Source: Actinomycetota bacterium
Lineage (GTDB): Bacteria > Actinomycetota > Actinomycetes > Streptosporangiales > Streptosporangiaceae
Length of the DNA stretch: 64,000 nt
Assembly: GCA_021324595.1 (NCBI GenBank)
Contig: JAJPIV010000128.1
Location: 1-64,000 of the forward strand
Direction of reading: 5' to 3'
A model generated the notes under the pieces. It searched no databases. It was not told where the DNA came from and worked only from the letters and a program-made list of their open reading frames with translations. This document shows positions 2,914 to 27,888 of the stretch, piece after piece; the first letter of the stretch is position 1, and each line of letters starts with the position of its first letter. The position numbers were made by a program, and so were the translations under genes.

Positions 2914-2917
2914 CCCG

Positions 2918-2936
2918 GGCCCGCGACAGCCGGGCC
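2918..2936. terminator. Candidate hairpin between convergent genes
   Basis: GGCCCG-N7-CGGGCC just after the hydrolase stop and before the convergent regulator end. Confidence 0.4.
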
Positions 2937-3045
2937 GGCGATCCGTCAACGAGGGCGGGCGCCACCCACTCCCAGCGCCGCGTGGCCGCGCCGCGAAGTC
3001 GCCGCGGGCTCGCGAGCGCGGCAACCGCCGCCACGCCGGACCAGG

Positions 3046-4953
3046 TCACCCAGCCCAGCGGTGCGCGCCGGCGCGGTGCAACCGGATGGCGAGCCGTATT
3101 TCCAGCGCCCGCTCACCGTCCTGCCAGCCGTCCCCGAGCAGCCGCGTGAGCCGGTCGAGCCGCTGCTTGACCGTGTTCACGTGCACATGCAGAGCGTCCT
3201 TGGCCCTAGTCAGGTTCCCGTTGCTGGCGAAGTAGGCCTCGATGGTGTGCATCAGCTGGCTCCCCCTGCGGCTGTCATAGCTGAGCACTGGGCCGATCGC
3301 GGACTGGATGAACCCGGGAATGTCCTTGCGGTCCGACAACAGCAGGCCCAGGAAGCCCAATTCGCCCGAGGCCGCCGACTCTCCCCGCCGACCCAGCGCG
3401 GTCAGGGCGTCCACGACGCGCCGCGCCTCCCGGTAGGCGGCCGGGATGGCCTGCGGGCACCCTGGGACGAGCGCCGATCCCGCGGTCACCGGCCGGCCGG
3501 CCGCCGAGTTCAGCGCCCCGGCGGCCTCCCGCACGACCCTGGCGGCATCGGTCCCCGGCAGCAGCAGCACCGCGACGCCATCCTGCTCGGCCGCCAGGCC
3601 GTGCCGTGTCGCGGCCAGGTGCGCCACGGCCGGCCGGAGCCGCGACCTGCTCGCCTCGTCCGCGTGGGCCACGATCAGGATGTGCGGCTGGCTGAGGTCG
3701 GCCCCCAGCCGAAGTGCCCGGCCGCGGAGTGAGTCGCTGTCGTGCTGCGGGGCGGCGAGCAGGTCGCTCAGCAGCTCGCCGCGCACGCGGTGCTCGGCCT
3801 CGGTGACCGACCGGCGCAGCAGGAGCAGGAGAGCGGTCACCATGGCTGCCCGCTCCAGGATCAGCTGGTCGGTCGCGGGCAGGATGTGCCCGGCCCGCAG
3901 GACCAGGGTGCCCAGGTGCTCCGATCCGGCGGTCGCGGGCACGGTCCACAGGTTTCCGGTGCGCACCGCGTGGCCGACCGTCCGTGACCTGGCCGCGGCC
4001 CTGCGCAGTATCTTCTCGGACGCCAGGGATGACCCGCTCTCCGCGAGCGGGGAGTCGTCGGCGTCCAGGATGATCACGCTGCTGCCCAGGACGTCGGCGA
4101 CGGCGTGCGCCACATCCTCGGCCCTGCCGCCCGCGAGCACGAGCTCGGTGAACCGGCGGTGGGCCTGTGAGGTGCGCTCCACCGCCGCGCTCTGCTCCCG
4201 GATGAGCGCGTTGGCCGCGCTGAGCTCGGCGACGGCAGCCCTAGCCTCCTCCAGCAGGTTCGCCGCGTCGATCGCCACGGCGGCGTGCGCGGCGAGAGAG
4301 GACAGCAGGGACACCTCCGCGGGGTTGAACGTGCGGGGCCGGCGGTCGGCGGCGAACAGCACGCCGATGACGCTGTCGCCGAGCATGAGGGGGACGCCGA
4401 GGATCGCCACCAGCCCCTCCTCGACCACCCCCCGGTCGATGGTGGGGGTGTGCCTGAACCGCTCGTCGGTCAGGTACGCCGCGCTCGCGTACGGCGTGGC
4501 CCGCTCGGCCACCAGGCCGCCGAGCCCTTCACCCATGCCGAGGCGCAGCTGCTGGAAGAACCGCGAGACTGAGCCCGAGGTGACCCGCATGTAGGTGTCG
4601 CCCCGGGCGGGGTCGTGGAGCGTCATGTAGGCGACGTCGGCTCCCAGGAGCAGCCGGGCGCGGCGGACAATGGCCCGCAGCACTGAATCCAGGTCGTGCA
4701 GGGCCGCCAGGTCGCTGGCCGTCTCGAAGAGCGCGGCCAGCTCCGCCTCCCGGCGGCGGCGCTGATCCAGCTCGTCGCGGACGCGCAGCGCGATCAGCTT
4801 CACGTCCTCGAGCTCAGCCAGCTGAGCGGATGTCGCGCCGCGAGCCTGCGCCCTCGCCAGCGGGCGCTCGAAGTCCGCTGCCGGGGCCTCGCGGTCCAGC
4901 AGTAGCAGGAACTCGCGGCAACGGGCCAAGAGGGACGAGTCGTCCATGGCCAC
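3046..4953 (-). CDS. GAF-domain PucR/CdaR-type helix-turn-helix transcriptional regulator
   Basis: GAF-like region (VAYMTLHDPARGDTYMRVTSG...GVLFAADRRPRTF) and C-terminal PucR HTH (YFASNGNLTRAKDALHVHVNTVKQRLDRLTRLLG). Confidence 0.85.
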   Translation of the reverse strand: MAMDDSSLLARCREFLLLLDREAPAADFERPLARAQARGATSAQLAELEDVKLIALRVRDELDQRRRREAELAALFETASDLAALHDLDSVLRAIVRRARLLLGADVAYMTLHDPARGDTYMRVTSGSVSRFFQQLRLGMGEGLGGLVAERATPYASAAYLTDERFRHTPTIDRGVVEEGLVAILGVPLMLGDSVIGVLFAADRRPRTFNPAEVSLLSSLAAHAAVAIDAANLLEEARAAVAELSAANALIREQSAAVERTSQAHRRFTELVLAGGRAEDVAHAVADVLGSSVIILDADDSPLAESGSSLASEKILRRAAARSRTVGHAVRTGNLWTVPATAGSEHLGTLVLRAGHILPATDQLILERAAMVTALLLLLRRSVTEAEHRVRGELLSDLLAAPQHDSDSLRGRALRLGADLSQPHILIVAHADEASRSRLRPAVAHLAATRHGLAAEQDGVAVLLLPGTDAARVVREAAGALNSAAGRPVTAGSALVPGCPQAIPAAYREARRVVDALTALGRRGESAASGELGFLGLLLSDRKDIPGFIQSAIGPVLSYDSRRGSQLMHTIEAYFASNGNLTRAKDALHVHVNTVKQRLDRLTRLLGDGWQDGERALEIRLAIRLHRAGAHRWAG

Positions 4954-5156
4954 ATTCTGCCGCCTCCCGAAGACCTTCAGTATCGGTTCCAGCCATATCT
5001 TTCAGGCCAAGTACGTTGTTCATCGCCATATCAGGTCGGCAGGTGGTCACCTAGCGTTCACCGTCATGGAAGCCAGCTCACCAGGACGGCACATCCCGGG
5101 GCGGCACGTCCCCGCCACCGCGGCTCGCGGCGCGCCGCCCGAGGGACAGGTGTGAC

Positions 5157-6398
5157 ATGAGACACGCGAGAATTCTTTCCGCCATGGCCGCGGCCTCGCT
5201 GATTGCCGGCGTGGCGGCATGCGGCAGCTCCGGCCCCTCTCCCAGCGCGGGGCGCGGGCCGGTCACCATCGGCGAGTCCACCACGCTGTCGGGTGCGATC
5301 GCCGAACTCGGCCAGAGCGGCCTGCAAGGAGTGCAGCTCGCAGTGGCCGACATCAACGCGCACGGCGGGCTGCTGGGGCACAAGGTGAAGGTGGTCAGCG
5401 CCGACGACGCCGCGACCCCCGCCACGGGCGCCTCCAACGTCCGGTCGATGATCCTCAACGATCACGCCGTGGCAATCTTCGGCCCGGTGTCGAGCGCGGT
5501 CGCGGCGGCGGAGGAACCGCTGGCGGCCGAGTACAAGGTGCCGATCTTCTTCCACACCTCCAATGACATCAACCTGATGGGGAAGGGCTTCACCAAGTAC
5601 GCGTTCCAGGTCGTCCCCAACACCGTCATGGAGTCGCGGGCGGCGGCCGACTACCTCGCGAAGCAGTCGGGCGGCAAGCCGATCACCATCGCCACCTTCG
5701 CTCCCGCGTACAGCTTCGGGTATGACACGGTCAGCGGCTTCCTGACCGCGCTCAAGGACCTGCATGTCCACTACAAGCTGGTCGCGCAGGAGTTCCCTCC
5801 GCTGGAGGCCCCGAACATCTCCGCCTACCTGTCCAAGATCGTGACCGCCAGGCCGCAGTACCTGTTCAACGCGCAGTTCGGCGGCGACTTGGTCACATTC
5901 ACCAAGCAGGCCGCCGGGTACGGCCTGTTCGCCAAGACGAAGGTCATCGCGATGTACGACTCGCCCGTGCTCGAGGCGCTCGGGTCCAGCGCGCCCGCCA
6001 GCGCGATCGGCTTCGATCGGGCCCCGTTCTGGGCGATCCCTGGCCTGGGCGCGTTCAACAGGGAATTCCATGCCAGGTACGGGGCCTGGCCGTCGGAGTG
6101 GGCGATCCTGGCCTACACCGCCGTGCAGACCTGGGCCTACGGCGTCAAGCGGGCGCACAGCTTCGGCGGCGACGCGGTGTCGGCGGCGCTGGCCGGGGCC
6201 ACCGTGCCGACGATCCGCGGCGACATCACGATCCGGGCGTGCGACCACCAGGCCGAGATTCCCGAGTACGTCGGCGTCGTCGCGAGCAAGCCCGATCCCT
6301 CCTATGGCGAGATCCTGTGGGATCCCTCGTCACTGTTCGCCGCCCCGTTCGCCACCATCGACCTGTCGTGCGCGCAGGTCGAGGCGCTGCGCGGCTGA
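5157..6398 (+). CDS. Branched-chain amino acid-type ABC transporter substrate-binding lipoprotein
   Basis: Lipobox VAACGSS; Peripla_BP/LivJ-like GPVTIGESTTLSGAIAELGQSGLQGVQLAVADINAHGGLLGHKVKVV. Confidence 0.9.
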   Translation: MRHARILSAMAAASLIAGVAACGSSGPSPSAGRGPVTIGESTTLSGAIAELGQSGLQGVQLAVADINAHGGLLGHKVKVVSADDAATPATGASNVRSMILNDHAVAIFGPVSSAVAAAEEPLAAEYKVPIFFHTSNDINLMGKGFTKYAFQVVPNTVMESRAAADYLAKQSGGKPITIATFAPAYSFGYDTVSGFLTALKDLHVHYKLVAQEFPPLEAPNISAYLSKIVTARPQYLFNAQFGGDLVTFTKQAAGYGLFAKTKVIAMYDSPVLEALGSSAPASAIGFDRAPFWAIPGLGAFNREFHARYGAWPSEWAILAYTAVQTWAYGVKRAHSFGGDAVSAALAGATVPTIRGDITIRACDHQAEIPEYVGVVASKPDPSYGEILWDPSSLFAAPFATIDLSCAQVEALRG

Positions 6399-6405
6399 GC
6401 ACCGC

Positions 6406-7284
6406 ATGATGCCCACCGCGATCATCGACACCGTGGGGGTGCTGAGCACGGCCGGCGCGCTGTTCATCGTGTCGGCCGGGCTCACCCTCGTGTTCGGCGC
6501 GATGCGGCTGATCAACATCGCCCACGGAAGCTTTTACATGTACGGCGCCTTCCTGCTCACGACCATCGCCGGGGCCGGGACCGGACTCCGGTTCTGGCTG
6601 GCGGTGGTGGCGGCGACGATCGTTGTGGCGCTGATCGGGGCAGCGGTGGAACTGGTGATCATGCGGCGCGTCTACGATTCCGAGCACCTCACCCAGCTGA
6701 TCGCCACCTTCGGGTTGTTCCTGATCTTCGCTGACCTGGCGCTGCACTTCTGGGGCGACAACAGCAGGACGGCGAATCCGCCTGCGGCGTTCGCGGGCCA
6801 GGTGGCCATCGGCGGAGCCGTATTCCCGGCCTATGACCTGGTGGTGATCGCAGCCGCGGTGGCGGTCGGCCTGGGCCTGTGGGTTCTGCTGCAGCGCAGC
6901 GGCCTCGGCTGGCGCATCCGGGCGGCCGTCGAGGATCCCGAGACCCTCCAGGCGGGCGGCACCAATCTGCCCCTGCTCCGGACGGGCATGTTCACCATGG
7001 GAGCCCTCCTGGCCGGGCTCTCGGGGGCGATCGTCGCCCCGCAGGTCGCGGTGGCACCCGGCATGGACAGCTCGATCGTGGTCGCGGCGTTCATTGTGGC
7101 CATCATCGGAGGGCTCGGGTCGGTGCCCGGGGCGGCCCTCGGCGCGCTCATCATCGGCGCCGCGGAGACGATCGGGACGATCGTGGCCCCGACCTGGGCC
7201 TCCAGCTTCATCTACCTGGCCATGATCGCCGTGCTGGTGGCCCGGCCGTCCGGCCTGCTCGGCATTCCGGAGCGCCGCCAGTGA
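6406..7284 (+). CDS. livH: Branched-chain amino acid-type ABC transporter permease (LivH family)
   Basis: ATG 6406 in frame with listed ORF 6070-7284; MMPTAIIDTVGVLSTAGALFIVSAGLTLVFGAMRLINIAHGSFYMYGAF is LivH-like. Confidence 0.88.
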   Translation: MMPTAIIDTVGVLSTAGALFIVSAGLTLVFGAMRLINIAHGSFYMYGAFLLTTIAGAGTGLRFWLAVVAATIVVALIGAAVELVIMRRVYDSEHLTQLIATFGLFLIFADLALHFWGDNSRTANPPAAFAGQVAIGGAVFPAYDLVVIAAAVAVGLGLWVLLQRSGLGWRIRAAVEDPETLQAGGTNLPLLRTGMFTMGALLAGLSGAIVAPQVAVAPGMDSSIVVAAFIVAIIGGLGSVPGAALGALIIGAAETIGTIVAPTWASSFIYLAMIAVLVARPSGLLGIPERRQ

Positions 7285-8423
7285 CCGTCGCGAGGCAGGT
7301 CCTCCAGGCCGTCGCGCGGGCCGCCGCGGGCGCCCGCCGCGTCCGCGCGAGCCAACCCGGCGGCGCCCTGGCGCCGCCCGCCGCCAGGGCCACCGGGCTG
7401 GCCGGCGTCGCTGCCGTACTGGTGGCCTTCGGATTCCTGCTCGGCGCCAGCAGCCTGCTCACCCTTGAGGAAGCGGTCGGGCTCGCCCTGTTCGCGGTGG
7501 CGACCAACCTGCTGGTCGGCTACGCAGGCCTGGTTTCGTTCGGCCAGGCCGCCTTCTACGGCCTCGGCGCCTATACGGTCGCGCTTAGCTGGCAGCACTA
7601 CAACTGGCCGTTCTGGCTCACGTTCACGCTGGCACCCGTGCTGGGGGGAGCCGCCGCTTTCCTCGTGGGCCTGGTGGCCCTCCGCGCGCGGTTCCTGTAC
7701 TTCGCCTTGCTGACCCTGGCCTTCTCGCAGCTCTTCTACGAGATCGCCGAGAACCAGTACCACTTCACCAGCGGCGCCAACGGCGTCTTCGGTCCCATGG
7801 TGCCGTCGGCGCTCGCGCAACCGCGGGCCGGGTACTTCTTCGTTCTCGCGGTGGTGGCCGCCTGCCTGGCGATCCTGTGGAAGGTGACCGCGTCGTCGTT
7901 CGGGTTGACGCTGCGGGCCATCAGGGAGAATCGCGCCCGGGCCGAGGCGCTGGGGATCAACGTCTTCCGTCAGGAGCTGATCGCCTTCGTGATCTCCGGG
8001 GTGTTCTGCTCGCTCGCCGGAACGCTGTTCGTGGTGTACAGCCAGTCCGCGTATCCCGAACTGCTGGACTGGCAGCAGTCAGGATACGCGGTGTTCATGG
8101 TGGTCATCGGCGGCATGTTCACATTCCTCGGCCCAGCGCTGGGAGCCGTCATCTACACGGTGGGTCAGCAGTTCCTCATCAGCCGGACGGCGGATTGGCA
8201 GCTAATCCTCGGCGCGGTGCTGCTGCTCATCGTCTTGTTCCGCCCCGACGGCCTCGCCGGGCTCGCCGACTCGGCGGCCCGCTGGCTGGCTCAGCGCGTT
8301 CCCGCCGTCATGCGCCGCGGGGCGCCTGGCAGCAAGGCCCCGCCGCGGGTGGCTCCGGTGGCGTCAGCCTCGGAAGGTGAACCTCAGCATGCCGCGAGAG
8401 TGCCCGGTGACGAGCGCGAATAG
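7281..8423 (+). CDS. livM: Branched-chain amino acid-type ABC transporter permease (LivM family)
   Basis: GTG 7281 overlaps the livH stop by 4 nt; LVGYAGLVSFGQAAFYGLGAYT motif. Confidence 0.88.
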   Translation: MTVARQVLQAVARAAAGARRVRASQPGGALAPPAARATGLAGVAAVLVAFGFLLGASSLLTLEEAVGLALFAVATNLLVGYAGLVSFGQAAFYGLGAYTVALSWQHYNWPFWLTFTLAPVLGGAAAFLVGLVALRARFLYFALLTLAFSQLFYEIAENQYHFTSGANGVFGPMVPSALAQPRAGYFFVLAVVAACLAILWKVTASSFGLTLRAIRENRARAEALGINVFRQELIAFVISGVFCSLAGTLFVVYSQSAYPELLDWQQSGYAVFMVVIGGMFTFLGPALGAVIYTVGQQFLISRTADWQLILGAVLLLIVLFRPDGLAGLADSAARWLAQRVPAVMRRGAPGSKAPPRVAPVASASEGEPQHAARVPGDERE

Positions 8424-9231
8424 CGGCGCCGGAGCGGCCGCTCCTCCGCCCGGCCCGGCGCCAGTTCCCGTCCTGCTTGAAGCTCGGCGCCTGGTCCGCG
8501 ACTTCGGCTCGTTCCGCGCGGTGAACGACGTGAGCCTGCGCGTGGCGGAGGGCACCATCCACTCGGTGATCGGGCCCAATGGCGCCGGAAAGACGACGCT
8601 CTTCCGGCTGCTGACCGGCATTCACCGGCCCACGTCCGGCAGGGTGCTGCTGGACGGAAGGGACGTCACGGGACAGGCGCCGCACGCCATCGCCCGCCGG
8701 GGGCTCGCTCAGTCCTTCCAGCTCACGACCATCTTTCCCCGCCTCACCGTGCTGGAGTCGGTGCAGGCCGCCATCGTGGCCGCCAGCGGGCACCGCGCCG
8801 ACTTCGTGAGCCGGTTCCACCGTTCCACCGTTCCGGAGGCCATGCGGGTTCTCGGCCGGGTTGGCCTGGCCGATCACGCCCGCACGCTGGCCGGCACTCT
8901 GTCCCACGGCGACCAGCGAGCGCTTGACGTGGCCCTTGCCCTGGCCACCAAGCCCAAAGTGCTGCTCCTGGACGAGCCCACGGCCGGCATGTCCGAGGCC
9001 GAGACCGAACGGACGATCGCGCTGATCGCCGACCTCGTCCGCACCGGGGGTATCACCGTCCTGTTCTCCGAGCACGACATGGACATCGTGTTCGGGATCT
9101 CCGACCGCGTCACCGTGCTCCATCAGGGCCGCGTCATCGCGGAGGGAACCGGCCCGCAGGTCCGCGCGAACGAGGAAGTCACTGCGGTCTACCTGGGCGG
9201 TTCCGGCTGGGGGATGCAACGTGATGCTTGA
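8389..9231 (+). CDS. livG: ABC transporter ATP-binding protein (LivG family)
   Basis: Walker A GPNGAGKTT, Walker B VLLLDEPTAGM; start 8389 chosen for its upstream GGAAGG (8377 GTG alternative). Confidence 0.9.
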   Translation: MPRECPVTSANSGAGAAAPPPGPAPVPVLLEARRLVRDFGSFRAVNDVSLRVAEGTIHSVIGPNGAGKTTLFRLLTGIHRPTSGRVLLDGRDVTGQAPHAIARRGLAQSFQLTTIFPRLTVLESVQAAIVAASGHRADFVSRFHRSTVPEAMRVLGRVGLADHARTLAGTLSHGDQRALDVALALATKPKVLLLDEPTAGMSEAETERTIALIADLVRTGGITVLFSEHDMDIVFGISDRVTVLHQGRVIAEGTGPQVRANEEVTAVYLGGSGWGMQRDA

Positions 9232-9970
9232 GCTCGTCGACGTTCACACCTACTACGGCTCCAGCCACGTCCTGCAGGGCGTGGACCTCACGGTGGGCGC
9301 CGGGGAGGTGGTGGCGCTGCTCGGCCGCAACGGCGCGGGCAAGACGACCACCTTGCGGAGCATCACAGCCCTCACCCGGCCCCGCTCCGGACGCGTCGTG
9401 CTGGCGGGCCGGGACATAACCTCCCGCCCCCCACATGTGATCGCCCGGGCGGGCGTCGCGTACGTGCCCAGCGGCCGCCGGGTGTTCTCGCAGCTGACAG
9501 TCGCCCAGAATCTCGCGCTGGCCGCGCGCGGATGCCCTGGCCGCGCCGGTCCCTGGACCATCCGGCGGGTCTACGACACGTTCCCCGCCCTCGCCGAGTT
9601 GTCGGCGCGCCGCGCCGGCTTCCTGTCGGGCGGGGAACAGCAGATGCTCAAGCTCGGGCGTGCCCTGCTGGCGCAGCCGGACGTGCTCTTGCTCGATGAG
9701 CCAACGGAGGGATTGTCGCCGACCATGGTGGACGCGCTCGGCGGATGGCTGAACCTGCTGCGGAAAGCTGCGCTGAGCGTCCTGCTGACCGAGCAGAGCG
9801 CGGTGTTCGCCCTGCGCCACGCCGACCGCGGCTACATCCTCGAGAAAGGCCGAGTCCGCGCCCACGGGCCGGCCCGGCGAATGATCGACAGCAGGGAACT
9901 GCACGACTTCCTGGGGGTCGGCCGAGGTGGCGATCCGCCGGATGGCTCGGCCACGGAGGGACGGCGATGA
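9221..9970 (+). CDS. livF: ABC transporter ATP-binding protein (LivF family)
   Basis: Walker A GRNGAGKTTT, LSGGEQQMLKLGRAL, VLLLDEPTEGLSP. Confidence 0.9.
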   Translation: MMLELVDVHTYYGSSHVLQGVDLTVGAGEVVALLGRNGAGKTTTLRSITALTRPRSGRVVLAGRDITSRPPHVIARAGVAYVPSGRRVFSQLTVAQNLALAARGCPGRAGPWTIRRVYDTFPALAELSARRAGFLSGGEQQMLKLGRALLAQPDVLLLDEPTEGLSPTMVDALGGWLNLLRKAALSVLLTEQSAVFALRHADRGYILEKGRVRAHGPARRMIDSRELHDFLGVGRGGDPPDGSATEGRR

Positions 9971-10740
9971 ACGGCACGGGCAGACGTGGAACCGCCGAGA
10001 TGGCAGGCCGGCTCGCCCTGGTCACCGGCGGGGCGAGCGGGATTGGCGCGGCCTGCGCCACTCGGCTGGCCGCGGACGGAGCCCAGGTGATGGTCGCGGA
10101 CATCGACATGGAGGCGGCCACCAAGGTGGCGGCGGCCATCGGCGGGATCGCCCGCCAGGTCGACCTGGCGGATCCCGCCTTCGACGCGGACGCGCTCGCC
10201 GGCCATGCCGACATACTGGTGAACTGCGCGGGCATCCAGCACGTAGCCCCGCTGCAGGAATTCCCAGTGGACATGTTCCGGCGGATCCTCGGCGTGATGT
10301 TGGAAGCCCCCTTCCGGCTCGCCCGGGCCGCCCTGCCGCACATGTACCGGAGGGGCTGGGGGCGGATCGTAAGCATCTCCTCGGTGCACGGCCTGCGGGC
10401 CTCTCCCTACAAGGCCGCCTACGTCGCGGCCAAGCATGGCCTGGAGGGGCTGTCCAAGGTGATCGCGCTGGAAGCCGGGCAGTGCGGGGTCACGTCCAAC
10501 ACGGTGTGCCCCGCCTACGTGCGCACCCCGCTCGTGGAGCGCCAGATCGGCGACCAGGCCCGCGTCCATGGCATCTCCCCCGATCAGGTGGTGCGCGAGA
10601 TCATGCTGGCCGAGCCCGTGATCAAGCGGCTGATCGAACCCGAGGAGGTCGCCGAGCTGGTCGCCTACCTCTGCTCCCCGCAGGCCTCGTTCGCCAACGG
10701 GGCCTCCTGGATCCTCGATGGCGGATGGACCGCCCGGTAG
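9967..10740 (+). CDS. SDR family oxidoreductase (3-hydroxybutyrate dehydrogenase-like)
   Basis: ATG 9967 overlaps livF stop; TGGASGIG, NCAG, S...YxxxK (AYVAAKHG); ends SFANGASWILDGGWTAR. Confidence 0.87.
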   Translation: MNGTGRRGTAEMAGRLALVTGGASGIGAACATRLAADGAQVMVADIDMEAATKVAAAIGGIARQVDLADPAFDADALAGHADILVNCAGIQHVAPLQEFPVDMFRRILGVMLEAPFRLARAALPHMYRRGWGRIVSISSVHGLRASPYKAAYVAAKHGLEGLSKVIALEAGQCGVTSNTVCPAYVRTPLVERQIGDQARVHGISPDQVVREIMLAEPVIKRLIEPEEVAELVAYLCSPQASFANGASWILDGGWTAR

Positions 10741-10746
10741 GCGGCA

Positions 10747-10759
10747 CCCTCACTGAGGG
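10747..10759 (+). terminator. Short hairpin after the liv-SDR operon
   Basis: CCCTC-ACT-GAGGG 6 nt after the SDR stop; short stem and no U-tract. Confidence 0.3.
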
Positions 10760-10925
10760 CGCGCCCGCGTGCCATGCCTCCGCCTGCGTGTCCCCGGGCC
10801 GGCGGCTTACCATCTGTCCTGTTGCCGTCACGGCCGCCTGGGAGATCGCCGTCCCGCCGAGTCGGCGCGTCTGGGCGCGGCCGGGCGACGGCGTGCCTGA
10901 CCGGTGGCCGACAGGAAGGCGAGCC

Positions 10926-12491
10926 ATGGCCCTGCCCAGCCTCGGCGTGCAACCCGTGGAGCAGTCCAGGAGCAAGGGCCTCAAGCCGGGCGCCCTGGGC
11001 CTCGCGTCCAGCGTGGCCATCGGCGTGGCCTCGACCGCGCCCGCGTACAGCCTGGCGGCGACCCTCTTCTTCGTGGTGGCCGCCGTCGGGCTGAAGTCCC
11101 CGCTGGTCGCCCTGCTGGCGTTCGTGCCGATGCTGCTGTGCTCGATCGGCTTCAGCGAGCTGAACAAGGCCGACCCCGACTGCGGGACCACGTTCATCTG
11201 GGCAGCGCGCGCGTTCGGGCCGAGGACGGGCTGGGCCGGCGGCTGGGCGATCGTCGCCTCCGACGTGCTGGTCATGGCCAGCCTGGCCCAGGTCGCCGGG
11301 CAGTACGTGTTCTTCCTGGCCCAGGGGCCGGGCAGCGCGATCGGCGCGGACGCCTCCGGCGGCTGGGTGCTGCTGGCCGGCATCTCGTGGATCGTCGCCA
11401 TGACCTACATCTGCTACCGCGGCATCGAGATCTCGGCCAGGTTCCAGAAGGCGCTGCTGTCCGTCGAGATCATCATGCTGCTGGCCATGTCCGGCACGGC
11501 GCTGGCCCGGGTCCTCGGCGGCCACCCGCCGGCGGGCTCGGCGCGCCCCAGCCCCGCCTGGCTGTCACCGTCCCACGTCCCGGTCTCGGCCCTGGTCTCC
11601 GGGATCATCCTGATGCTGTTCATCTACTGGGGCTGGGACACCTCCCTGTCGGTGAACGAGGAGACCGCGGACAAGTCGCGCACGCCGGGCAGGGCGGGGA
11701 TCATCTCGACCGTCCTGCTGGCCGGCATCTACGTGATCGCGATCACCGCGGTGCAGGCCTTCGCCGGCATCGGAGGCAAGGGAGTCGGGCTGACGAACCC
11801 GGCGCACCAGTTCGATGTGCTGTCGGTCGCCGGGGGCGCGATCTTCGGCACCAGCGGGCTCGGCACGGTGCTGTCCCGCCTGCTGATCCTCATGGTGCTC
11901 AGCTCGGCCGCCGCCTCGACCCAGACCACGATCCTGCCGACGGCCCGCACGACGCTGTCGATGGCCGCGTACGGCGCGCTGCCCGAGCCGTTCGCCCGGA
12001 TCAACCCCCGGTACCTGACGCCGGCGGTGTCCACGGTCGTGATGGGCGCGATCTCGATCGGCCTGTACGTGCCGCTGAACTATATCTCCCACGGCAACCC
12101 GATCGCCGACGCGGTCACCGCGATCGGGCTGTACGTCGCGTTCTACTACGGGCTGACCGCGTTCTCCTGCGTCTGGTACTACCGGGCGACGCTGGCCACC
12201 AGCTTCCGGGCGCTGCTGATGCGCGGCATCCTGCCCGGGCTGGGCGGGGTGATGATGTACGCCGCGGGCTGCTACAGCCTGCAAAGCGACTGGGTGGCCT
12301 CCAACAGCTACACCATGTGGACAGTGCCGTTCCTGCACTGGAGGATCGGCGGCATCTTCGTCATCGCCGCGCTCGCCGCGCTCGCCGGGGTGGCCGGCTT
12401 CGCCCTCATGCGGGCGACCTCCCCCGCCTTCTTCCGCAAGCAGACGCTCACCAGGACCATCACCATGCTGATCTCCAACCCTGAGCTGTGA
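10926..12491 (+). CDS. APC-family amino acid permease
   Basis: In frame with ORF 9927-12491; GLASSVAIGVASTAPAYSLAATL and 11-12 hydrophobic segments. Confidence 0.87.
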   Translation: MALPSLGVQPVEQSRSKGLKPGALGLASSVAIGVASTAPAYSLAATLFFVVAAVGLKSPLVALLAFVPMLLCSIGFSELNKADPDCGTTFIWAARAFGPRTGWAGGWAIVASDVLVMASLAQVAGQYVFFLAQGPGSAIGADASGGWVLLAGISWIVAMTYICYRGIEISARFQKALLSVEIIMLLAMSGTALARVLGGHPPAGSARPSPAWLSPSHVPVSALVSGIILMLFIYWGWDTSLSVNEETADKSRTPGRAGIISTVLLAGIYVIAITAVQAFAGIGGKGVGLTNPAHQFDVLSVAGGAIFGTSGLGTVLSRLLILMVLSSAAASTQTTILPTARTTLSMAAYGALPEPFARINPRYLTPAVSTVVMGAISIGLYVPLNYISHGNPIADAVTAIGLYVAFYYGLTAFSCVWYYRATLATSFRALLMRGILPGLGGVMMYAAGCYSLQSDWVASNSYTMWTVPFLHWRIGGIFVIAALAALAGVAGFALMRATSPAFFRKQTLTRTITMLISNPEL

Positions 12492-14734
12492 CACCTCCGG
12501 CAGGCGCGCCGGCCAGCCGGCCGGCCTGGCCGGTCCGGTCCGGGACGGTCCCCGCGCTCGCCGACGCCTTCAGCGCCAGGCCGGACACCGCCCCGGGCCT
12601 CGCGGCGGCGCTGCCGGCCGGGGCCGCGGTGGCGCTTGTCCCCGGCAGCGCCGCGGCTGGCCAGGGCCGCGCCGCGGCCGTCGCCGGCCGGGCGCCCTCG
12701 CCGCCGGCGGCAGGCGGGCAGGCGGCGGCTCCCGCCACGCGGGACTGGCCGAGGTCGTCGGGGAAGACCCAGCTCGCCGCGGCCTTCGCCGAGTCGCTGT
12801 GGCAGTCCGGCGGAGTGGACCTGCTGGTCTGGATCGACGCCACGAGCCGGGCCAGCGTGCTCTCCGGCTATGCGGCGGCGACCGCCGCGGTGACCGGCCG
12901 GGCCCAGGTGAGCACCTGCGAGTCCGTCGCCGCGCAGTTCCTCAGCTGGCTCGGCGAGACCACCCGCCCGTGGCTGCTGGTCCTCGATGACCTGGCCGAT
13001 CCGGCGAGCCTGCGGGACCTGTGGCCGGCTGGCCCGGCCGGCCGGGTGCTGGTGACCTCCGCCGACGCCACGGCCGTCCCCGGGGGGATCCCGGTCGTGC
13101 CGGTCGGGCCGTTCAGCGTGCGCGAGGCCGTCAGCCACCTGAACGGGCGCCTGTCGGGTGACCCGGACAAGCGGCACGGCGCGGTCGAGCTGGCCCAGGA
13201 ACTGGACCTGGAGCCGGTCGCCCTGGCTCAGGCCAGCGCGGTGATCGCCGGCTCGCCGCTGACGTGCCGCGAGTACCGGGATCACTTCGGCCGCAGGCGC
13301 GAGCAGCTGGCGCAGTCCTCCGGCGCGTGGCCGGCGGCGGCCGCGGTGACGTGGACGCTCTCGCTCGACCGTGCGGACCAGCTGGTCCCGGGCAGCGCGG
13401 CGCGCTCGCTCCTGGCCCTGGCCGCCGTGCTGGACGGCCACGGCATCCCCCGGACCGTCCTGACCGCTCCCGCCGCTGCCGATCACCTCGCCGGCGCCGG
13501 GAGCCCTCAGGCGGGCGGCGACCGCGCCACCGCGGCCCTGGACGCGCTGGCGGCCCTGGAGCAGGCAGGCCTGCTGGCCGTCGAGCACGCGACGGCGCCG
13601 CCGCTGGTCCGGATCAGTCCCGTGCTGCAGCCGGCGGTGCGGGCCTCGCTGCCCGAGAGCCTGCTGCGCGGCGCGGCCCGGGCGGCGGCAGACGCGCTGC
13701 TCCAGGCCTGGCCGGAGCAGGAGCCGCCCGGCTGGCCCTCGTCCGGCCTGCGGTCCTGCGCGGCGGCGCTGCGGCGGGCCGGGGGGAGCCTGCTGTGGGC
13801 CGGCGGCTGCCATCGCGTGCTGATCCGGGCGGGGGACAGCCTGGACCGTGCCCGCCTGACCGGGCCCGCGGCGGACCACTGGCGGGACGTGGCCACGACC
13901 TGCGCCCTCCTGCTGGGCGAGGGTCATCCGGACACGATGCTGGCCGTCCGGCGGCTCGCCGGCGCCTGCCTCGCGGCCGGGCAGGCCGGCGAGGCCGTCC
14001 GGTGGCGCCAGTGGCTGCTCGGCAGCCTGAGCCACCGGCTGGGGCCGGACCACCCCGAGGTGGCGGACGCCCGCCGCCACCTGGGCAACGCCCTGGTGGC
14101 GGCGCGGGAACTCCCGGCGGCGATCGCCGCCTTGGAGCGCGCGGCCGCCGGGCTCGAGCGGCTTCACGGCCCCGGGCACGCCGAGGCGCTGGACGCGAGG
14201 GACGACCTCGCCGCCGCCTACCTGGCCGCGGGCAGGCACGTCGACGCCCTCACCGCCTGCCGGCGCACGCTGGCCGACCGCGAGCGCGCGCAGGGGGCCC
14301 GCCACCCGAAGACGATGGCGACCCGGCACGGCCTGGCTCGCTCATTGCTGGCCGGCGGCCGCGCCCGGGAGGCGGTCGCGGCCTACCGGCGGGTGGTGGC
14401 CGACCGGGAACGCGTCCTCGGGCCCGATCACCCGGACACCCTCGCGGCGCTGAGCGGCCTCGCCTCCGCGTACCAGGAGACGGGCAGGGCCGTGGCGGCC
14501 GAGCTGGCCTGCGAGCGGGCCTGGGCGGGCTCCGAGCGGGTGCTCGGCCCGCGCGACCCCGGCACGCTGCGGATCCGCGCCCAGCTGGCCCGGCTCTACC
14601 AGCGGCTCGGACGCTACGGGGACGCCCGCGTGCTGCTGCGCGACACCGTTCACCGCCTGGAACGGATCGTGCCCGGGGACGACCCGCTCATCGCTGAGCT
14701 GCGCCAGAGCCTGGCCGACATCGGCGAGGAGTAG
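12488..14734 (+). CDS. NB-ARC-like NTPase with C-terminal TPR repeats
   Basis: SSGKTQLAAAFAESL degenerate P-loop, PWLLVLDDL Walker B, then repeated LGxxHPDTLA...LxxAYxxxGR TPR_10/12-like units; GTGA overlap with the permease stop. Confidence 0.8.
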   Translation: MTPPAGAPASRPAWPVRSGTVPALADAFSARPDTAPGLAAALPAGAAVALVPGSAAAGQGRAAAVAGRAPSPPAAGGQAAAPATRDWPRSSGKTQLAAAFAESLWQSGGVDLLVWIDATSRASVLSGYAAATAAVTGRAQVSTCESVAAQFLSWLGETTRPWLLVLDDLADPASLRDLWPAGPAGRVLVTSADATAVPGGIPVVPVGPFSVREAVSHLNGRLSGDPDKRHGAVELAQELDLEPVALAQASAVIAGSPLTCREYRDHFGRRREQLAQSSGAWPAAAAVTWTLSLDRADQLVPGSAARSLLALAAVLDGHGIPRTVLTAPAAADHLAGAGSPQAGGDRATAALDALAALEQAGLLAVEHATAPPLVRISPVLQPAVRASLPESLLRGAARAAADALLQAWPEQEPPGWPSSGLRSCAAALRRAGGSLLWAGGCHRVLIRAGDSLDRARLTGPAADHWRDVATTCALLLGEGHPDTMLAVRRLAGACLAAGQAGEAVRWRQWLLGSLSHRLGPDHPEVADARRHLGNALVAARELPAAIAALERAAAGLERLHGPGHAEALDARDDLAAAYLAAGRHVDALTACRRTLADRERAQGARHPKTMATRHGLARSLLAGGRAREAVAAYRRVVADRERVLGPDHPDTLAALSGLASAYQETGRAVAAELACERAWAGSERVLGPRDPGTLRIRAQLARLYQRLGRYGDARVLLRDTVHRLERIVPGDDPLIAELRQSLADIGEE

Positions 14735-16075: not shown

Positions 16076-17611
16076 TCAGCCCAGCCCGGGGAACAGGTGG
16101 CCGGCGACCTCGATCAGGAGCTGGATGCCGTCGTTGCGCAGCACCTGCTCGTCGGCGGCCAGGCCGGGGGCGGGCAGGCCGAGCCACCTGGCCAGCTCCA
16201 GGCCGGCGAACAGGGCCGCCCTGGGCAGCGCGGGCAGCAGGGCCGCGTCCGGCACCTGGTAGGCGGGAACCGGCCGCGGGGTCACCTGCGGCCAGTCCTC
16301 GGGCGGCCGCGGCCGCTCCAGCGTGAGCACGGGCGCCAGGTCGGGCGCCGCGGCGTCCCGGCCGGTGAGCGGAGGGCCCAGCGACCAGCGCCGGCGCAGC
16401 GTGGTGATCACTGAGCTGTTGTGGAACACCTCCGTGCGGACGGCCCGTTCCGGGATCCAGGGCGAGATCGCGACCGCCGGCACCCGCACGCCCGCTCGGG
16501 TGAACGTGAAGCCGAGCTGGCCGGGCGGCGCCGACGGGTCGGGCGGCGCGGCGGCGGGCGGCGGGACGTGATCGTAGGTGCCGCCGTGCTCGTCGAACGT
16601 GACCAGCAGCAGCGTGTCGTAGGCGTGGGCGCCTGAGCCGCGGATCGCGTCGTAGACCCTGGCGAGCAGCGCCTCCCCGCCGATCAGCGAGGACGGCGGG
16701 TCCATCCGCGCCCCGGGGAACATCACGTCGAACGCCGGGTGCATGTCGTTGTGCCCGTAGATCAGGTTCGGCTCGATGAACGAGTACGCCGGCAGCCTCC
16801 CGCCCGCCGCGTCCTCGTAGAAGCGGTCGGTCGAGGAGAAGTGCGTCGCGAACCTGGAGAGCAGCCGCCGCGCGTGGATGATCCCGGTGACCGAGACGTG
16901 GCTTGGCGGGTCGCAGTACACCCGCCAGGACAGCCCGTGCGCGTCCAGCCGGTCGAAGATCGTCTCGGCGGTGTTGAACAACGGGAACGCCTCGGGCGGG
17001 GAGGCGTTGACGACGTAGCCGGAGGAGGTGGCCGCGTGCAGGAACGACCGGTTCGCGAACGTCTCCGTGGGCACGTCGCAGAACCAGTGGTCGAACGTCG
17101 CGAACCCCCTGGCCAGCGCCGACAGCACCGGCATCTGCCCGGGCGCGTACCCGGTCATGATCTGGCCGTACTCGGCCGGCCCGGGCATTCTCCCGGTGAA
17201 CGCGAGCGTGGCGCTGATGTAGTCCGTGACGAACCCGTCCATCGTGGGCGCCGGCGAGGGGCCGGCCGGGGCGTTGTACGGCGCCGCCATGGCGCCGGCG
17301 AGCCTGCCCCGGTTCGACGGCGGGTCGATCAGCCCGAACAGCTGCGTGTTGACGTGCTGGTACTCCTCGCCCGGGTCGGGCGAGGGGGTGTTCATGCCTG
17401 CGGCCACGCCGTAGCCGATCCGGCCGGGCCCGCCCGGCGCCCACCCGGGGACCGGGTTGGACAGGTCCCGGCCGGCCACGCCCTCGAACGCGGGCACCTC
17501 GCCGGGCTGGTAGAGGCGGCCGAGCAGGTTGTCGAACGACCGGTTCTCGAACATGATCACGACGATGTGATCGAGCGCGGCGGCGCGGTCCGGTCGCGGC
17601 ATGGCCGCCAC
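16076..17611 (-). CDS. Phosphoesterase family protein (PF04185-type, phospholipase C/acid phosphatase-like)
   Basis: LDHIVVIMFENRSFDNLLGRLY and LLVTFDEHGGTYDHVPPP motifs. Confidence 0.88.
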   Translation of the reverse strand: MAAMPRPDRAAALDHIVVIMFENRSFDNLLGRLYQPGEVPAFEGVAGRDLSNPVPGWAPGGPGRIGYGVAAGMNTPSPDPGEEYQHVNTQLFGLIDPPSNRGRLAGAMAAPYNAPAGPSPAPTMDGFVTDYISATLAFTGRMPGPAEYGQIMTGYAPGQMPVLSALARGFATFDHWFCDVPTETFANRSFLHAATSSGYVVNASPPEAFPLFNTAETIFDRLDAHGLSWRVYCDPPSHVSVTGIIHARRLLSRFATHFSSTDRFYEDAAGGRLPAYSFIEPNLIYGHNDMHPAFDVMFPGARMDPPSSLIGGEALLARVYDAIRGSGAHAYDTLLLVTFDEHGGTYDHVPPPAAAPPDPSAPPGQLGFTFTRAGVRVPAVAISPWIPERAVRTEVFHNSSVITTLRRRWSLGPPLTGRDAAAPDLAPVLTLERPRPPEDWPQVTPRPVPAYQVPDAALLPALPRAALFAGLELARWLGLPAPGLAADEQVLRNDGIQLLIEVAGHLFPGLG

Positions 17612-23272: not shown

Positions 23273-24001
23273 ATGACCGACACGCTGATGCCCGGTGGCG
23301 GGGTCGCCAGGCGCCCGCTGCACTTCATCGTGATGGCCGACTGCTCCGGCTCGATGAAGGGCGAGAAGATGCAGGCGCTGAACTTCGCGCTGCGCTCGAT
23401 GCTGCCGCACCTGGTGGACTGGGAGCGCGACCAGCTGCAGGCGCAGCTGCTGGTCCGCATCCTCGCGTTCGCGACCGCGCCCGCGTGGTTCGTCGCCGAT
23501 CCCACGCCGATCGCCGAGCTCGCCACCCGCTGGCGCAACCTGGAGTACGTGCCGATGGGCCGCACGAACATGGGCCCGGCCTTCCGCGCCGTCGCCGAGG
23601 TGCTCGGGCCGGACCGGCTGGAGCGACGCGCCCTGCGCCCGGCCATCCTGCTGATCACCGACGGGCTGCCGACCGACCCGCCCGGCGGGTTCGAGGCCGG
23701 GCTGGACGCGCTGATGTCGATCGCGGCTGGCCGTTCCGCGCTGCGCCTGGCAGTGGCGATCGGCCGGGACGCCAGCTCCGAGCCGCTTGACCGGTTCCGC
23801 AGCCCCGAGGTGCCGGTGCTGGTGGCCGACGGCACCGACGAGATCGCCGACCGGCTGGTCACCGCATCGATCGCGGTCTCCCGGATGTCGGAGGCCGGCG
23901 TGGACCGGGGCGCCCTCGCGCAGCAGCTCATCCCGGCCGGGAGCGACCCGAGCCGGCCGCGGGACCGGGGCGGTCTCGGCGTGGACGATTCCATCCTGTG
24001 A
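23273..24001 (+). CDS. TerY-like VWA-domain protein
   Basis: Complete MIDAS: MADCSGSMKG, GRTNMGPAF, LITDGLPTD. Confidence 0.9.
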   Translation: MTDTLMPGGGVARRPLHFIVMADCSGSMKGEKMQALNFALRSMLPHLVDWERDQLQAQLLVRILAFATAPAWFVADPTPIAELATRWRNLEYVPMGRTNMGPAFRAVAEVLGPDRLERRALRPAILLITDGLPTDPPGGFEAGLDALMSIAAGRSALRLAVAIGRDASSEPLDRFRSPEVPVLVADGTDEIADRLVTASIAVSRMSEAGVDRGALAQQLIPAGSDPSRPRDRGGLGVDDSIL

Positions 24002-25047
24002 TGACCAGGTCCGGATGGCTCGTGCTGACCGCCTCCGCCCGGGGCGCCTCGCACGTCGCCATGGACACGCCGAACCAGGACGCGGTCGGGACCGGGCCGG
24101 CGGGACCGGACGGCGTGGTCGCGGCGGTCGCCGACGGCCACGGGCACTGGCGCCACCTGCGCAGCGCCCGCGGGTCGCGGCTCGCGGTCACGGTCGGCTG
24201 CCAGGTCGGCACGGAGCTCGCCGGGCGGCTGCCGGCCAGCCCCGACGCCGCGGCGGTGACCGGGCTGCTGACCGGGTTCGCCGTCCCCGCGATCATCACG
24301 CGGTGGCGGGACGCGGTGCTCGCCGACCTGGCCGGGGATCCGTTCACCAGCGCCGAGCAGGAGCGGCGCCTGCCGGGCGACGACCCGGTGATCGCCTACG
24401 GCTCGACTCTGCTGCTCGCCGTGGCCGTGCGGGAGTGGCTGGCGATCGCGCAGATCGGCGACGGGGACGTCATCGGCGTGCGCGCCGACGGACGGGCCGA
24501 CCTTCCGGTCCCCGGCGACCCGAACCTGGACGGGCTGGTGACGACCAGCCTGTGCGGCGCCGATCCGGCCGGGGACTTCCGGGTCGCGGCGGTCGACACC
24601 GCCCGAGTCCCGTTGCTCGCGCTGCTGCTCGCCACCGACGGCTACGGCAACGCCCAGGTGGCGCAGGAGTGGCCGGAGGCGTTCAGCAGGGACCTCGCCG
24701 GCATGCTGCGCAACCGGGATGAGCAGTGGCTGGCCAGCCAGCTGCCGGCCTGGGCGGCCCGGTGCGCCTCGGGCGACGGCAGCGCCGACGACACCACGGT
24801 CGCGTTGCTGATCTCCCCGGCGGGCCGGCCTCCGCTGGCGGCCACCCCGCCGGGCAGCACCGGGCGGGATGGCGACCTGGACGAGGAGGAGACCACGATC
24901 CCCGCCTCGCGCGGCGACACGGTGCCGAGCTCGCCCGTCCCGGCCGAGCCGGACGCGGCCTGGCAAGCCGCGGCGCCCACCGCCGGCGAGCGGGCGGCGG
25001 AGCGGCCAGGGCCGGGCGGCCAGGGCCGGGCGGGAGGCGCCCGGTGA
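23998..25047 (+). CDS. PP2C-family serine/threonine phosphatase with acidic/Thr-rich C-terminal tail
   Basis: PNQDAVG, VAAVADGHGH, IGDGDVIGV, LATDGYG, SADDTTVALL; tail DGDLDEEETTIPASRGDTVP. Confidence 0.87.
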   Translation: MMTRSGWLVLTASARGASHVAMDTPNQDAVGTGPAGPDGVVAAVADGHGHWRHLRSARGSRLAVTVGCQVGTELAGRLPASPDAAAVTGLLTGFAVPAIITRWRDAVLADLAGDPFTSAEQERRLPGDDPVIAYGSTLLLAVAVREWLAIAQIGDGDVIGVRADGRADLPVPGDPNLDGLVTTSLCGADPAGDFRVAAVDTARVPLLALLLATDGYGNAQVAQEWPEAFSRDLAGMLRNRDEQWLASQLPAWAARCASGDGSADDTTVALLISPAGRPPLAATPPGSTGRDGDLDEEETTIPASRGDTVPSSPVPAEPDAAWQAAAPTAGERAAERPGPGGQGRAGGAR

Positions 25048-26351
25048 GCGGCCAGCAGGTCAGCCTGCTGGGCAGGACGCTGCGGATGGTCCGGGCGGGG
25101 ACTCCCGTGGTGGTCGGCGAGCGGCTCGGCGAGGGCGGCCAGGGCGTGGTGCACGCCGTCACCATCGGCGGTGCCCCCTACGCGGTCAAGTGGTACCGGT
25201 ACGCCTCCCCCGAGCTGCGACGGAACATCGAGGCGCTGATCGAGCGCGGCCGCCCGCACCGGGACTTCTGCTGGCCGATCGACCTGGTGACCAGCGACGA
25301 GCTCTCCGGGTTCGGCTACGTGATGCCCCGCCTCGATCCGCGGTTCACCTCCTTCGCCCAGCTGGTCGCGCGCCCCCAGCAGCCGCCGTTCCGGGTGGTG
25401 ATCACGATCGGCCGCCATCTGGTCACGGCGTTCGAGGCACTGCACGCGGCCGGGCTGTGCTACCGGGACATCAGCTTCGGGAACCTGTGGGTGGACCCGG
25501 ACCGCGCCGAGGTCGCCATCATCGACAACGACAACTGCGGCCAGGACGGCGGCGAGGTCTTCGTCTGGGGCACGCTCCGGTTCATGGCCCCCGAGGTGGT
25601 CCGGCGCGAGGCCGCCCCGACCAGCCTCACCGACCTGCATTCGCTCGCGGTGTTCCTGTTCTACCTGTTCATGCACGGCCACCCGCTGGAGGGAGTGAGG
25701 ACCGACAAGTCCTACTCGTGGGCGGACGAGGCGCACCGCAGCGAGACCGACCTGGCGACGCTCCACTTCGGCACCGAGCCGGTCTTCATCTTCGACCCGG
25801 TCGACCACTCCAACCCGCCGCGCCCCGGCGACCCGGTCAGCGTGTGGTGGAGCCTGTACCCGAGGTTCTTCCGGTCGGTCTTCGAGCGCGCGTTCACCTC
25901 CGGACTGCGCGACCCGTCCGGCCTCGGCCGGGTCCCCGAGGGCGTGTGGCGGCGAGCCCTGGTCAGGCTGGCGGACTGCGTGTCGGTCTGCTCCTGCCAG
26001 GCGTCGGTCTTCGTGGACCCGGACGATCCCGGCCTGCGCTGCTGGAACTGCAAGCAGGTGCCGCCCCGTCCGCCGATGCTCCAGCTACCGACCTGCGCGG
26101 TGGCACTCACCCCGGGCGCCACGATCACGCCGCACCACCTGAGCCGGAACCGGGATTACGACACTGCGGTCGCGGTCGTCGAGAACCACCCGTCCCGGCC
26201 CGGCGAGGTCGTCCTGCGCAACGTCGGCCGCACGCCATGGACGATGACGCCGGACGGGGAGGCGTCCAAGATCGTCGAGCCCGACCGCAGGCTCGGCGTC
26301 CGCCCGATGGTCATCGACTTCGGGCCCGCGACCGGAAAGATCATCGTGTGA
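25044..26351 (+). CDS. Serine/threonine kinase-like protein with C-terminal zinc ribbon (TerY-P triad type)
   Basis: GTG 25044 (GTGA overlap with PP2C); GEGGQGVVHAV loop, YAVKWY, CYRDISFGN catalytic loop, IDNDN metal site, APE-like MAPEVV; CxC...CWNC zinc ribbon. Confidence 0.88.
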   Translation: MSGQQVSLLGRTLRMVRAGTPVVVGERLGEGGQGVVHAVTIGGAPYAVKWYRYASPELRRNIEALIERGRPHRDFCWPIDLVTSDELSGFGYVMPRLDPRFTSFAQLVARPQQPPFRVVITIGRHLVTAFEALHAAGLCYRDISFGNLWVDPDRAEVAIIDNDNCGQDGGEVFVWGTLRFMAPEVVRREAAPTSLTDLHSLAVFLFYLFMHGHPLEGVRTDKSYSWADEAHRSETDLATLHFGTEPVFIFDPVDHSNPPRPGDPVSVWWSLYPRFFRSVFERAFTSGLRDPSGLGRVPEGVWRRALVRLADCVSVCSCQASVFVDPDDPGLRCWNCKQVPPRPPMLQLPTCAVALTPGATITPHHLSRNRDYDTAVAVVENHPSRPGEVVLRNVGRTPWTMTPDGEASKIVEPDRRLGVRPMVIDFGPATGKIIV

Positions 26352-26373: not shown

Positions 26374-27888
26374 ATGAGCGAGCTGCTGCTGACCTACGAC
26401 AACCGGCTCTACCGGTTCGCCCCGGGGACCATCCGGATCGGCCGGAGCTCGGAGAGCGACATCGTGGTGCCCGACCCCACGGTGTCCCGCCGCCACGCGG
26501 AGCTGTCGTTCGAGGATCCCAGCGGCTGGGTCTGGCAGAACGCCGGCCAGTCGCCGACGTTCCTCAACGGCCAGCCGGTCGCCAGGTTCGTCGCGACGGG
26601 GACCGTGGACGTCCACCTCGCCTCGCCCCATGGCCCGGTCATCCGCCTGGAGGTGGTGCCGATGCCGGCGCAGGCCCCGGTGCGGACCGAACTCGCCGCG
26701 CCGCCCGGGCTCGCCCCCGCGACCCACCAGCCCGGCCCGCCCGCAGCGGCAGCCGCCCAGGCCGTCCCCCCGGCACCGGGCATGGCGCCCGCCGGGCCGC
26801 CGGGCACGCCCGGGGCCGGTCCCGTGCCCGGGGCGGCCCCGCCCGGCATGCCGGGCTACGGGGCTATGCCGGGAATGCCCGGGGCGATGCCGGGAATGCC
26901 CGGGGCGATGCCGGGCTACGGTCCGGTGCCGGGCGGCCCGCCCGGGGGGCAGCTGAACGCGGGCTCGTTCTTCGAGACGCTGATCCCGGTCAAGAGCTGG
27001 CTGCACGACCCGGGCTGGCGGCAGTGGCTGCGCCTGCTGATCATCCCGTATGCCCTGCTTCCGCTGATCTTCCTGCAGATCTTCTCCACCGCGCACTCGC
27101 TGTCCACCCCGGGCTGGGCGTACAGCATCTACGTCGCCCCGCTGTGGTTCATCGTGTTCTGGTACCTGACGCGCCCGCCGCGGTGGCACTGGGTGCCCGA
27201 GGGAGTGATCGCGGCGGGGATCGTGGTCTGGGAATGGATCTGGCTGCACGCGGTCACCATCAACATCAACGACCACCTGGCCAGCGGGACGCTCAACTTC
27301 GGCAAGGCCCTGATCGTGGGCTACAACGAGGAGATCAGCAAGGCCCTCCCCGTGCTCGTCGCGGCGCTGGCGCTGCTCGGGGTCAGGAAGCAGAAGCTGG
27401 ACCCGCGGACGTGGATGCTCATGGGCACGATCGCCGGGCTGACCTTCGGGATCATCGAGCAGTCGCTGTACACCCCGGGCGCGATCATCATGGTCCACGG
27501 GGCGCAGAACATCCCGCAGGCCGACGCCGGGGCACTGGACTTCGCGTTCCGGGTGTTCGTCGACGGCTTCCAGCACGCGGTCTGGGCGGGCGTGTCCGGG
27601 TTCTTCGTCGGCATGGCGGTCAACTATCGCCGGCGCCGCGTGCCCCTGCTGCTGCTCGGCATCACCATCCCGGCGGTGCTGCACGCGCTCAACGACTGGA
27701 CCCTGACGATCTTCAGCACCGTCTGGGTGACCGTGTTCCTCGTCCAGGGCGTGTCGCTGCTGCTCTTCCTCGGCTACACGCTGTCGGCCGCGACGATCGA
27801 GCGGAAGGTGCGCAGGAACCCGGCGTTCCGCGGGGAGTCGATCCTGATGGACCGGTTCAGCAGCCTGCCCGGGGGCCAGCAGTCCTGA
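26374..27888 (+). CDS. FHA domain fused to PrsW-family intramembrane protease
   Basis: FHA: IRIGRSSESDIVVPDPTVSRRHAEL...FLNGQPV; PrsW: YNEEISKALPV (EExxK), TFGIIEQSLY (FxxxE), FQHAVWAGVSGFFVG, HALNDW. Confidence 0.9.
   Translation: MSELLLTYDNRLYRFAPGTIRIGRSSESDIVVPDPTVSRRHAELSFEDPSGWVWQNAGQSPTFLNGQPVARFVATGTVDVHLASPHGPVIRLEVVPMPAQAPVRTELAAPPGLAPATHQPGPPAAAAAQAVPPAPGMAPAGPPGTPGAGPVPGAAPPGMPGYGAMPGMPGAMPGMPGAMPGYGPVPGGPPGGQLNAGSFFETLIPVKSWLHDPGWRQWLRLLIIPYALLPLIFLQIFSTAHSLSTPGWAYSIYVAPLWFIVFWYLTRPPRWHWVPEGVIAAGIVVWEWIWLHAVTININDHLASGTLNFGKALIVGYNEEISKALPVLVAALALLGVRKQKLDPRTWMLMGTIAGLTFGIIEQSLYTPGAIIMVHGAQNIPQADAGALDFAFRVFVDGFQHAVWAGVSGFFVGMAVNYRRRRVPLLLLGITIPAVLHALNDWTLTIFSTVWVTVFLVQGVSLLLFLGYTLSAATIERKVRRNPAFRGESILMDRFSSLPGGQQS
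26866..26907 (+). repeat. Two 21-nt in-frame repeats encoding MPGMPGA
   Basis: atgccgggaatgcccggggcg x2. Confidence 0.85.

Follow-up and report, generated by a model that had tools for sequence, protein, structure and literature searches.

The last gene of an operon within the 64,000-nucleotide stretch of DNA analysed here, which comes from a poorly studied actinobacterium and is referred to as the window, encodes an FHA domain joined to a PrsW-type membrane domain. The question this raises is whether the reading of phosphothreonine could be physically coupled to intramembrane cleavage, as the original prediction proposed, and if so by which kinase the mark would be written and which membrane protein would be cut. 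To our knowledge the activation of PrsW-type proteases and the targets of TerY-P triads are both poorly understood. The FHA-PrsW architecture is not itself new, having been named in 2012 in the passage of Zhang et al. (PMC3482391) that describes PrsW domains fused to FHA, PilZ, cyclic-nucleotide (cNMP) and Zn-ribbon domains as probably signaling peptidases. What this case newly offers is an operon setting with a candidate substrate, together with the loss of an asparagine from the FHA site.

The FHA-PrsW polypeptide

The fusion gene (26374..27888; all coordinates of the operon are on the plus strand) runs from ATG to stop and encodes a single 504-amino acid polypeptide bearing both domains, as predicted. 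Pfam FHA (PF00498) is matched over residues 20-71 (E 1.7e-11, 44.9 bits against a curated cut-off of 20.7) and PrsW (PF13367) over residues 282-458 (E 1e-15, 58.3 bits against 23.5). The third-position GC content of 0.97 is coding-like, and a chance open reading frame is ruled out by codon bias, the Pfam matches and the orthologues. An AlphaFold model built from nine sequences shows the FHA domain (residues 1-96, 26374..26661), also delimited by Pfam and the fold match, with a pLDDT of ~92, a disordered Pro/Gly/Ala/Met linker (approximately residues 97-195, 26662..26958) with a pLDDT of ~30 and a helical PrsW membrane domain (26959..27885) of middling confidence. Residues 96-195 comprise 100 residues with 30 Pro, 21 Gly, 21 Ala and 8 Met, and the expected MPGMPGA repeats are present, with units starting at residues 165 and 172 and encoded by a 21-base tandem repeat of 2.7 copies (26859..26915). 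The linkers of the orthologues carry other Gly/Pro/Gln repeats, and MPGMPGA was rejected as a conserved functional element.

The modeled FHA domain best matches FHA-1 of Rv1747 (Z 17.8, rmsd 1.2), and the site residues Gly23, Arg24, Ser38 and His41 are invariant in all nine members of the family. The fifth conserved FHA residue is an asparagine (Asn107 of Rad53, Asn69 of Rv1747), which in Rad53 makes contact with the backbone of the phosphopeptide and which FHA I of Rv1747 retains (PMC5549992). It is absent from 9/9 members of the present family because the FHA loop, which reads GQSP-TFLNG, is one residue shorter. The canonical five-residue phosphothreonine site (Gly, Arg, Ser, His, Asn) is therefore found in none of the nine members, each of which has four of the five, and the ability to bind phosphothreonine may have been weakened, changed or lost. 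Judged from the sequence, binding by this domain is plausible but not secure. The earlier description of the FHA domain as canonical holds for the domain, its fold and the Gly, Arg, Ser and His residues but overstates the case with regard to the Asn missing in every member.

The membrane domain contains the motifs E319-E320-x-x-K323, F358xxxE362, H401 and H437xxxD441, corresponding to the EExxK, FxxxE, H and HxxxD/N motifs listed for Bacillus subtilis PrsW/YpdC (PMC12943098). All are intact and invariant across the alignment of nine members, bearing out the multi-pass PrsW region with EExxK, FxxxE and both His motifs of the original prediction. Hydropathy identifies seven transmembrane segments, and an eighth (~396-415) was placed by eye inside a long loop. 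With the eighth helix counted, the charged loops TRPPR, RKQK and YRRRR and the tail all lie on the same side, and by the positive-inside rule both the FHA domain and the C terminus are therefore predicted to be cytosolic (N-in/C-in, eight predicted helices), which places the FHA domain on the side where kinases act. Within the tail, a motif IE..VR..P.FRG.S (residues 475-489 of the window protein) is conserved across all FHA-PrsW proteins.

The model of the membrane part, which is of middling confidence, matches APH-1 of gamma-secretase with a Z of 13.9 over 206 residues, in agreement with the distant PrsW/APH-1 relation remarked on in the passage of Zhang et al. (PMC3482391). The profile match, the four motifs and this multi-helix PrsW/APH-1 type fold place the protein in PF13367, as a putative protease. 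The domain is nonetheless divergent, scoring 53 to 69 Pfam bits in the genus where the best canonical PrsW reaches ~165 to 195, and it scores 21.5 bits with the B. subtilis PrsW equivalog model NF033739 compared with an NCBIfam cut-off of 225. It is a relative of B. subtilis PrsW and not its equivalog.

The TerY-P type operon and P5

The genes of the operon lie on one strand in the order P5, VWA, PP2C, kinase and FHA-PrsW, separated successively by a 6-base gap, two 4-base overlaps and a 22-base gap. The TerY-like VWA protein (23273..24001) has an intact MIDAS-type motif (DxSGS, TNMG, TDG) and matches VWA_2 just below the curated cut-off (E 1.3e-5). The PP2C phosphatase (23998..25047; PP2C_2, E 1.1e-24) ends in a disordered tail containing DEEETTIPA, and the kinase (25044..26351; Pkinase, E 1.9e-12), of the TerY-P type, carries GxGxxG, AVK, YRD....N and DND motifs together with a C-terminal CxC/CxxC zinc-ribbon-like region. 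Upstream DNA can be read at three loci, from three genomes of one genus, and each of them has the same operon order, in full in locus L003 and in locus L116 up to the contig end, which falls inside the FHA-PrsW linker. The neighboring aminotransferase, DUF3097 and metallo-beta-lactamase genes are the same in L003, as is the right side in L005, and the locus thus looks vertically inherited. Elsewhere in the window a phosphoesterase family (PF04185) protein is encoded on the minus strand (16076-17611).

A TerY-P triad is defined by the adjacency of genes for a VWA protein, a PP2C phosphatase and a Ser/Thr kinase (PMC4978471; PMC7699616), and the three lie side by side in the window. The kinase matches a Methylomonas triad kinase at 35% over 100% of the length (tblastn), a Prevotella plasmid kinase at 30% over 94% and a Klebsiella plasmid kinase from a ter-type region at 25.5% over 79%. 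The Prevotella and Klebsiella relatives, the latter with a TerD-family gene, adjoin VWA, TerY-C and PP2C genes and the Methylomonas relative adjoins VWA and PP2C matches, with relatives of the VWA protein found at all three loci; the kinase family as a whole occurs on many plasmids. Because the genes are adjacent and the kinase and VWA protein have kin in such settings, the VWA-PP2C-kinase set is assigned as a TerY-P triad. It resembles the plasmid triads in its three adjacent components and in the relationship of kinase and VWA protein over full or nearly full length, and differs in that no TerD or separate TerY-C gene was found in the operon, the partners instead being P5 and FHA-PrsW.

P5 (21845..23266) is a candidate substrate or sensor composed of a predicted cytoplasmic helical domain, a P/G/Q linker, the sequence RRRG directly before a single strong transmembrane segment and a Cys-containing extracellular domain. 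Orthologues are present in L003 and L116, and four Cys residues of the extracellular part are kept in all three proteins. The N-terminal domain is helical in a weak model (mean pLDDT 47.5), with which a fold search returned no significant match and so says little. No match to P5 was found in Pfam, by sequence in the Protein Data Bank or on plasmids. RsiW, the known PrsW substrate, has its N terminus inside, one helix and its C terminus outside. P5 is first in the operon and has the same predicted topology, and on operon position and topology it is favored as the prime candidate substrate, although this is the weakest step of the proposed mechanism. One of the genomes (G003) has a second triad that is also accompanied by the N-terminal domain of P5: locus L117 (G003:C68:24000-43000) encodes at 7114-12591 a paralogous VWA-PP2C-kinase triad and a multi-pass membrane protein with this domain. 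The paralogous triad sits inside a Pup-proteasome cluster, with proteasome genes on one side and a gene of the Pup-ligase family on the other, and its PP2C bears an additional transmembrane helix.

The PP2C tail offers a candidate phosphothreonine site, DEEETTIPASR (24877..24909). The tail is divergent except for an E-x-T-I-P-A core that is kept in the two orthologues, reading DEEETTIPA in the window, SDETTIPA in L116 and SDEITIPA in L003. The core, a candidate FHA ligand, resembles the ETT motif of GarA and OdhI that is bound by the FHA domain of the same protein. The PP2C tail of the paralogous G003 triad reads YETIPA with no FHA-PrsW gene nearby, so a role in docking or controlling the kinase is just as likely for the motif, and its presence there counts against the proposed protease module.

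Distribution of the fusion and the triad

Five genomes of the genus (G000-G004) were sampled. Three of them, G000, G003 and G001, carry the triad operon, the G001 copy being cut off within the linker by the edge of its contig, whereas in G004 the contig begins inside the linker and the fusion gene and its right flank alone are visible; the triad kinase was not found in G002 or G004. A second FHA-PrsW lineage (clade B) occurs in all five genomes, including that of the window. Its neighbors, conserved over five loci (L013 at 2855-9711, L007, L008, L010 and L011), encode an amino acid permease, a transporter for cation efflux and a protein resembling AurF/ribonucleotide reductase. A third (clade C) is found in Trebonia kvetii and two Streptosporangiaceae assemblies, and in one member an additional Pro/Trp-rich stretch may precede the FHA domain (L004, 8611-9000, start codon uncertain). 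In the phylogenetic tree the fusions form one clade (100/99), within which the triad-associated lineage, clade A, is well supported (100/100) and sister to clade C (95/93), with clades B (76/71) and C (83/79) less certain.

No kinase, PP2C or VWA gene lies near FHA-PrsW at the clade B loci, and no triad genes lie near it at the clade C loci. The proposal that the fusion always stands beside a PP2C/kinase/VWA set is thus true of the three clade A loci with readable upstream DNA and fails for the second FHA-PrsW gene of the same genome and for the sister lineage. The fusion does not need the triad, being either older than or separable from the link to it, and this counts against the proposed module. 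The fusion was to have been discounted if common and unlinked to phospho-signaling genes; it is unlinked in two of the three lineages and is not common, at least in Actinomycetota, since neither FHA motif nor Pfam match occurs on any of 83 other PrsW open reading frames (80 of which match the PrsW profile) collected from related genomes and from a sample spread evenly over the phylum. The triad kinase was likewise found in 0/40 other genomes of a phylum sample and 0/26 relatives outside the genus. With both fusion and kinase rare, a chance meeting in one operon is unlikely. The search of plasmids for FHA-PrsW gave one match alone, a PrsW-only protein from Deinococcus. The five genus genomes contain no canonical PrsW and have the divergent FHA-PrsW forms alone, unlike most of the family.

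Proposed phosphorylation-controlled proteolysis and its alternatives

The operon is read here as a phosphorylation-controlled intramembrane protease module in which PrsW would be directed by phosphorylation to a membrane substrate, in the first instance P5, a reading to which we assign a probability of about one half. The triad would set the phosphothreonine level of a partner by writing and erasing the mark, and the cytosolic FHA domain on its 100-residue flexible linker would bind the marked partner. This binding would recruit the PrsW active site to a single-pass membrane protein, or switch it on towards one, and the protease would then cut P5 as the most likely substrate, releasing or destabilizing its cytoplasmic helical domain. 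Of the link to phospho-signaling first proposed, the single chain, the predicted cytosolic FHA domain and the operon with VWA, PP2C and kinase stand, whereas its generality does not. The arrangement is like that of the signaling peptidases in the passage of Zhang et al. (PMC3482391), where PrsW is combined with an intracellular signal-reading domain and cleavage is proposed to follow the sensed signal. That passage gives no kinase, phosphatase or substrate context, whereas a TerY-P operon, a candidate substrate and an FHA domain lacking the Asn are present here. The more specific version, in which the protease is the dedicated output of a TerY-P triad and FHA-read phosphothreonine directs PrsW to P5 without an ECF anti-sigma factor, is put forward tentatively.

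It is also conceivable, though we think it somewhat improbable, that the FHA domain has no role beyond placing the protease, or else recognizes its own tail or a partner that is not phosphorylated, the operon link being incidental or regulatory and the substrate, for example an anti-sigma factor as with PrsW and RsiW of B. subtilis, being encoded elsewhere. The loss of the Asn in every member and the two sister lineages without a triad point this way, while the invariance of the FHA Gly, Arg, Ser and His residues and the retention of the triad at all three clade A loci speak against it. The suggestion to look elsewhere in the genome for sigma/anti-sigma targets yielded five zf-HC2 anti-sigma-type matches on other contigs, which favor a substrate encoded elsewhere, but none lies on the contig of either FHA-PrsW gene.

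TerY-P triads are reported to be active against T7-like phages (PMC7699616), and this, together with the plasmid distribution of the kinase family, would suit an antiphage system with the triad as sensor and a pair of effectors, FHA-PrsW and P5, acting at the membrane. We regard this as unlikely, the neighbors shared with L003, and with L005 on the right side, suggesting vertical inheritance; PADLOC models match the set by generic kinase matches alone, a result that does not test function. Still less probable is a PrsW part serving as a non-catalytic, APH-1-like membrane scaffold regulated by the FHA domain, for the catalytic residues are all invariant in the nine members even though the membrane model matches APH-1 and the domain is divergent by Pfam bits. 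A role in toxin export or release, as played elsewhere by PrsW domains of the polymorphic-toxin type, is close to excluded by the architecture, with the FHA domain N-terminal, a short tail in place of a C-terminal toxin domain and FHA-PrsW set apart from the toxin type in the passage that describes both (PMC3482391).

The proposed phospho-directed protease has partial parallels in two characterized systems. In Mycobacterium tuberculosis the kinase gene pknF likewise shares an operon with the gene for a membrane protein, Rv1747, that bears the closest-matching FHA domain, but Rv1747 belongs to the ABC transporters and carries two FHA domains, the first retaining the Asn, and neither a protease nor a triad is present. 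With the PrsW-RsiW pair of B. subtilis the operon shares the four catalytic motifs and, in P5, a candidate substrate of the same in-to-out single-helix topology; that pair has no FHA domain or kinase, and P5 matches neither zf-HC2 nor any other Pfam family. If the proposed reading is correct, Ser/Thr kinase signaling would be coupled to regulated intramembrane proteolysis. The presence of reader, writer, eraser, protease and candidate substrate in one operon would make the questions of how PrsW is activated and what TerY-P triads target testable together.
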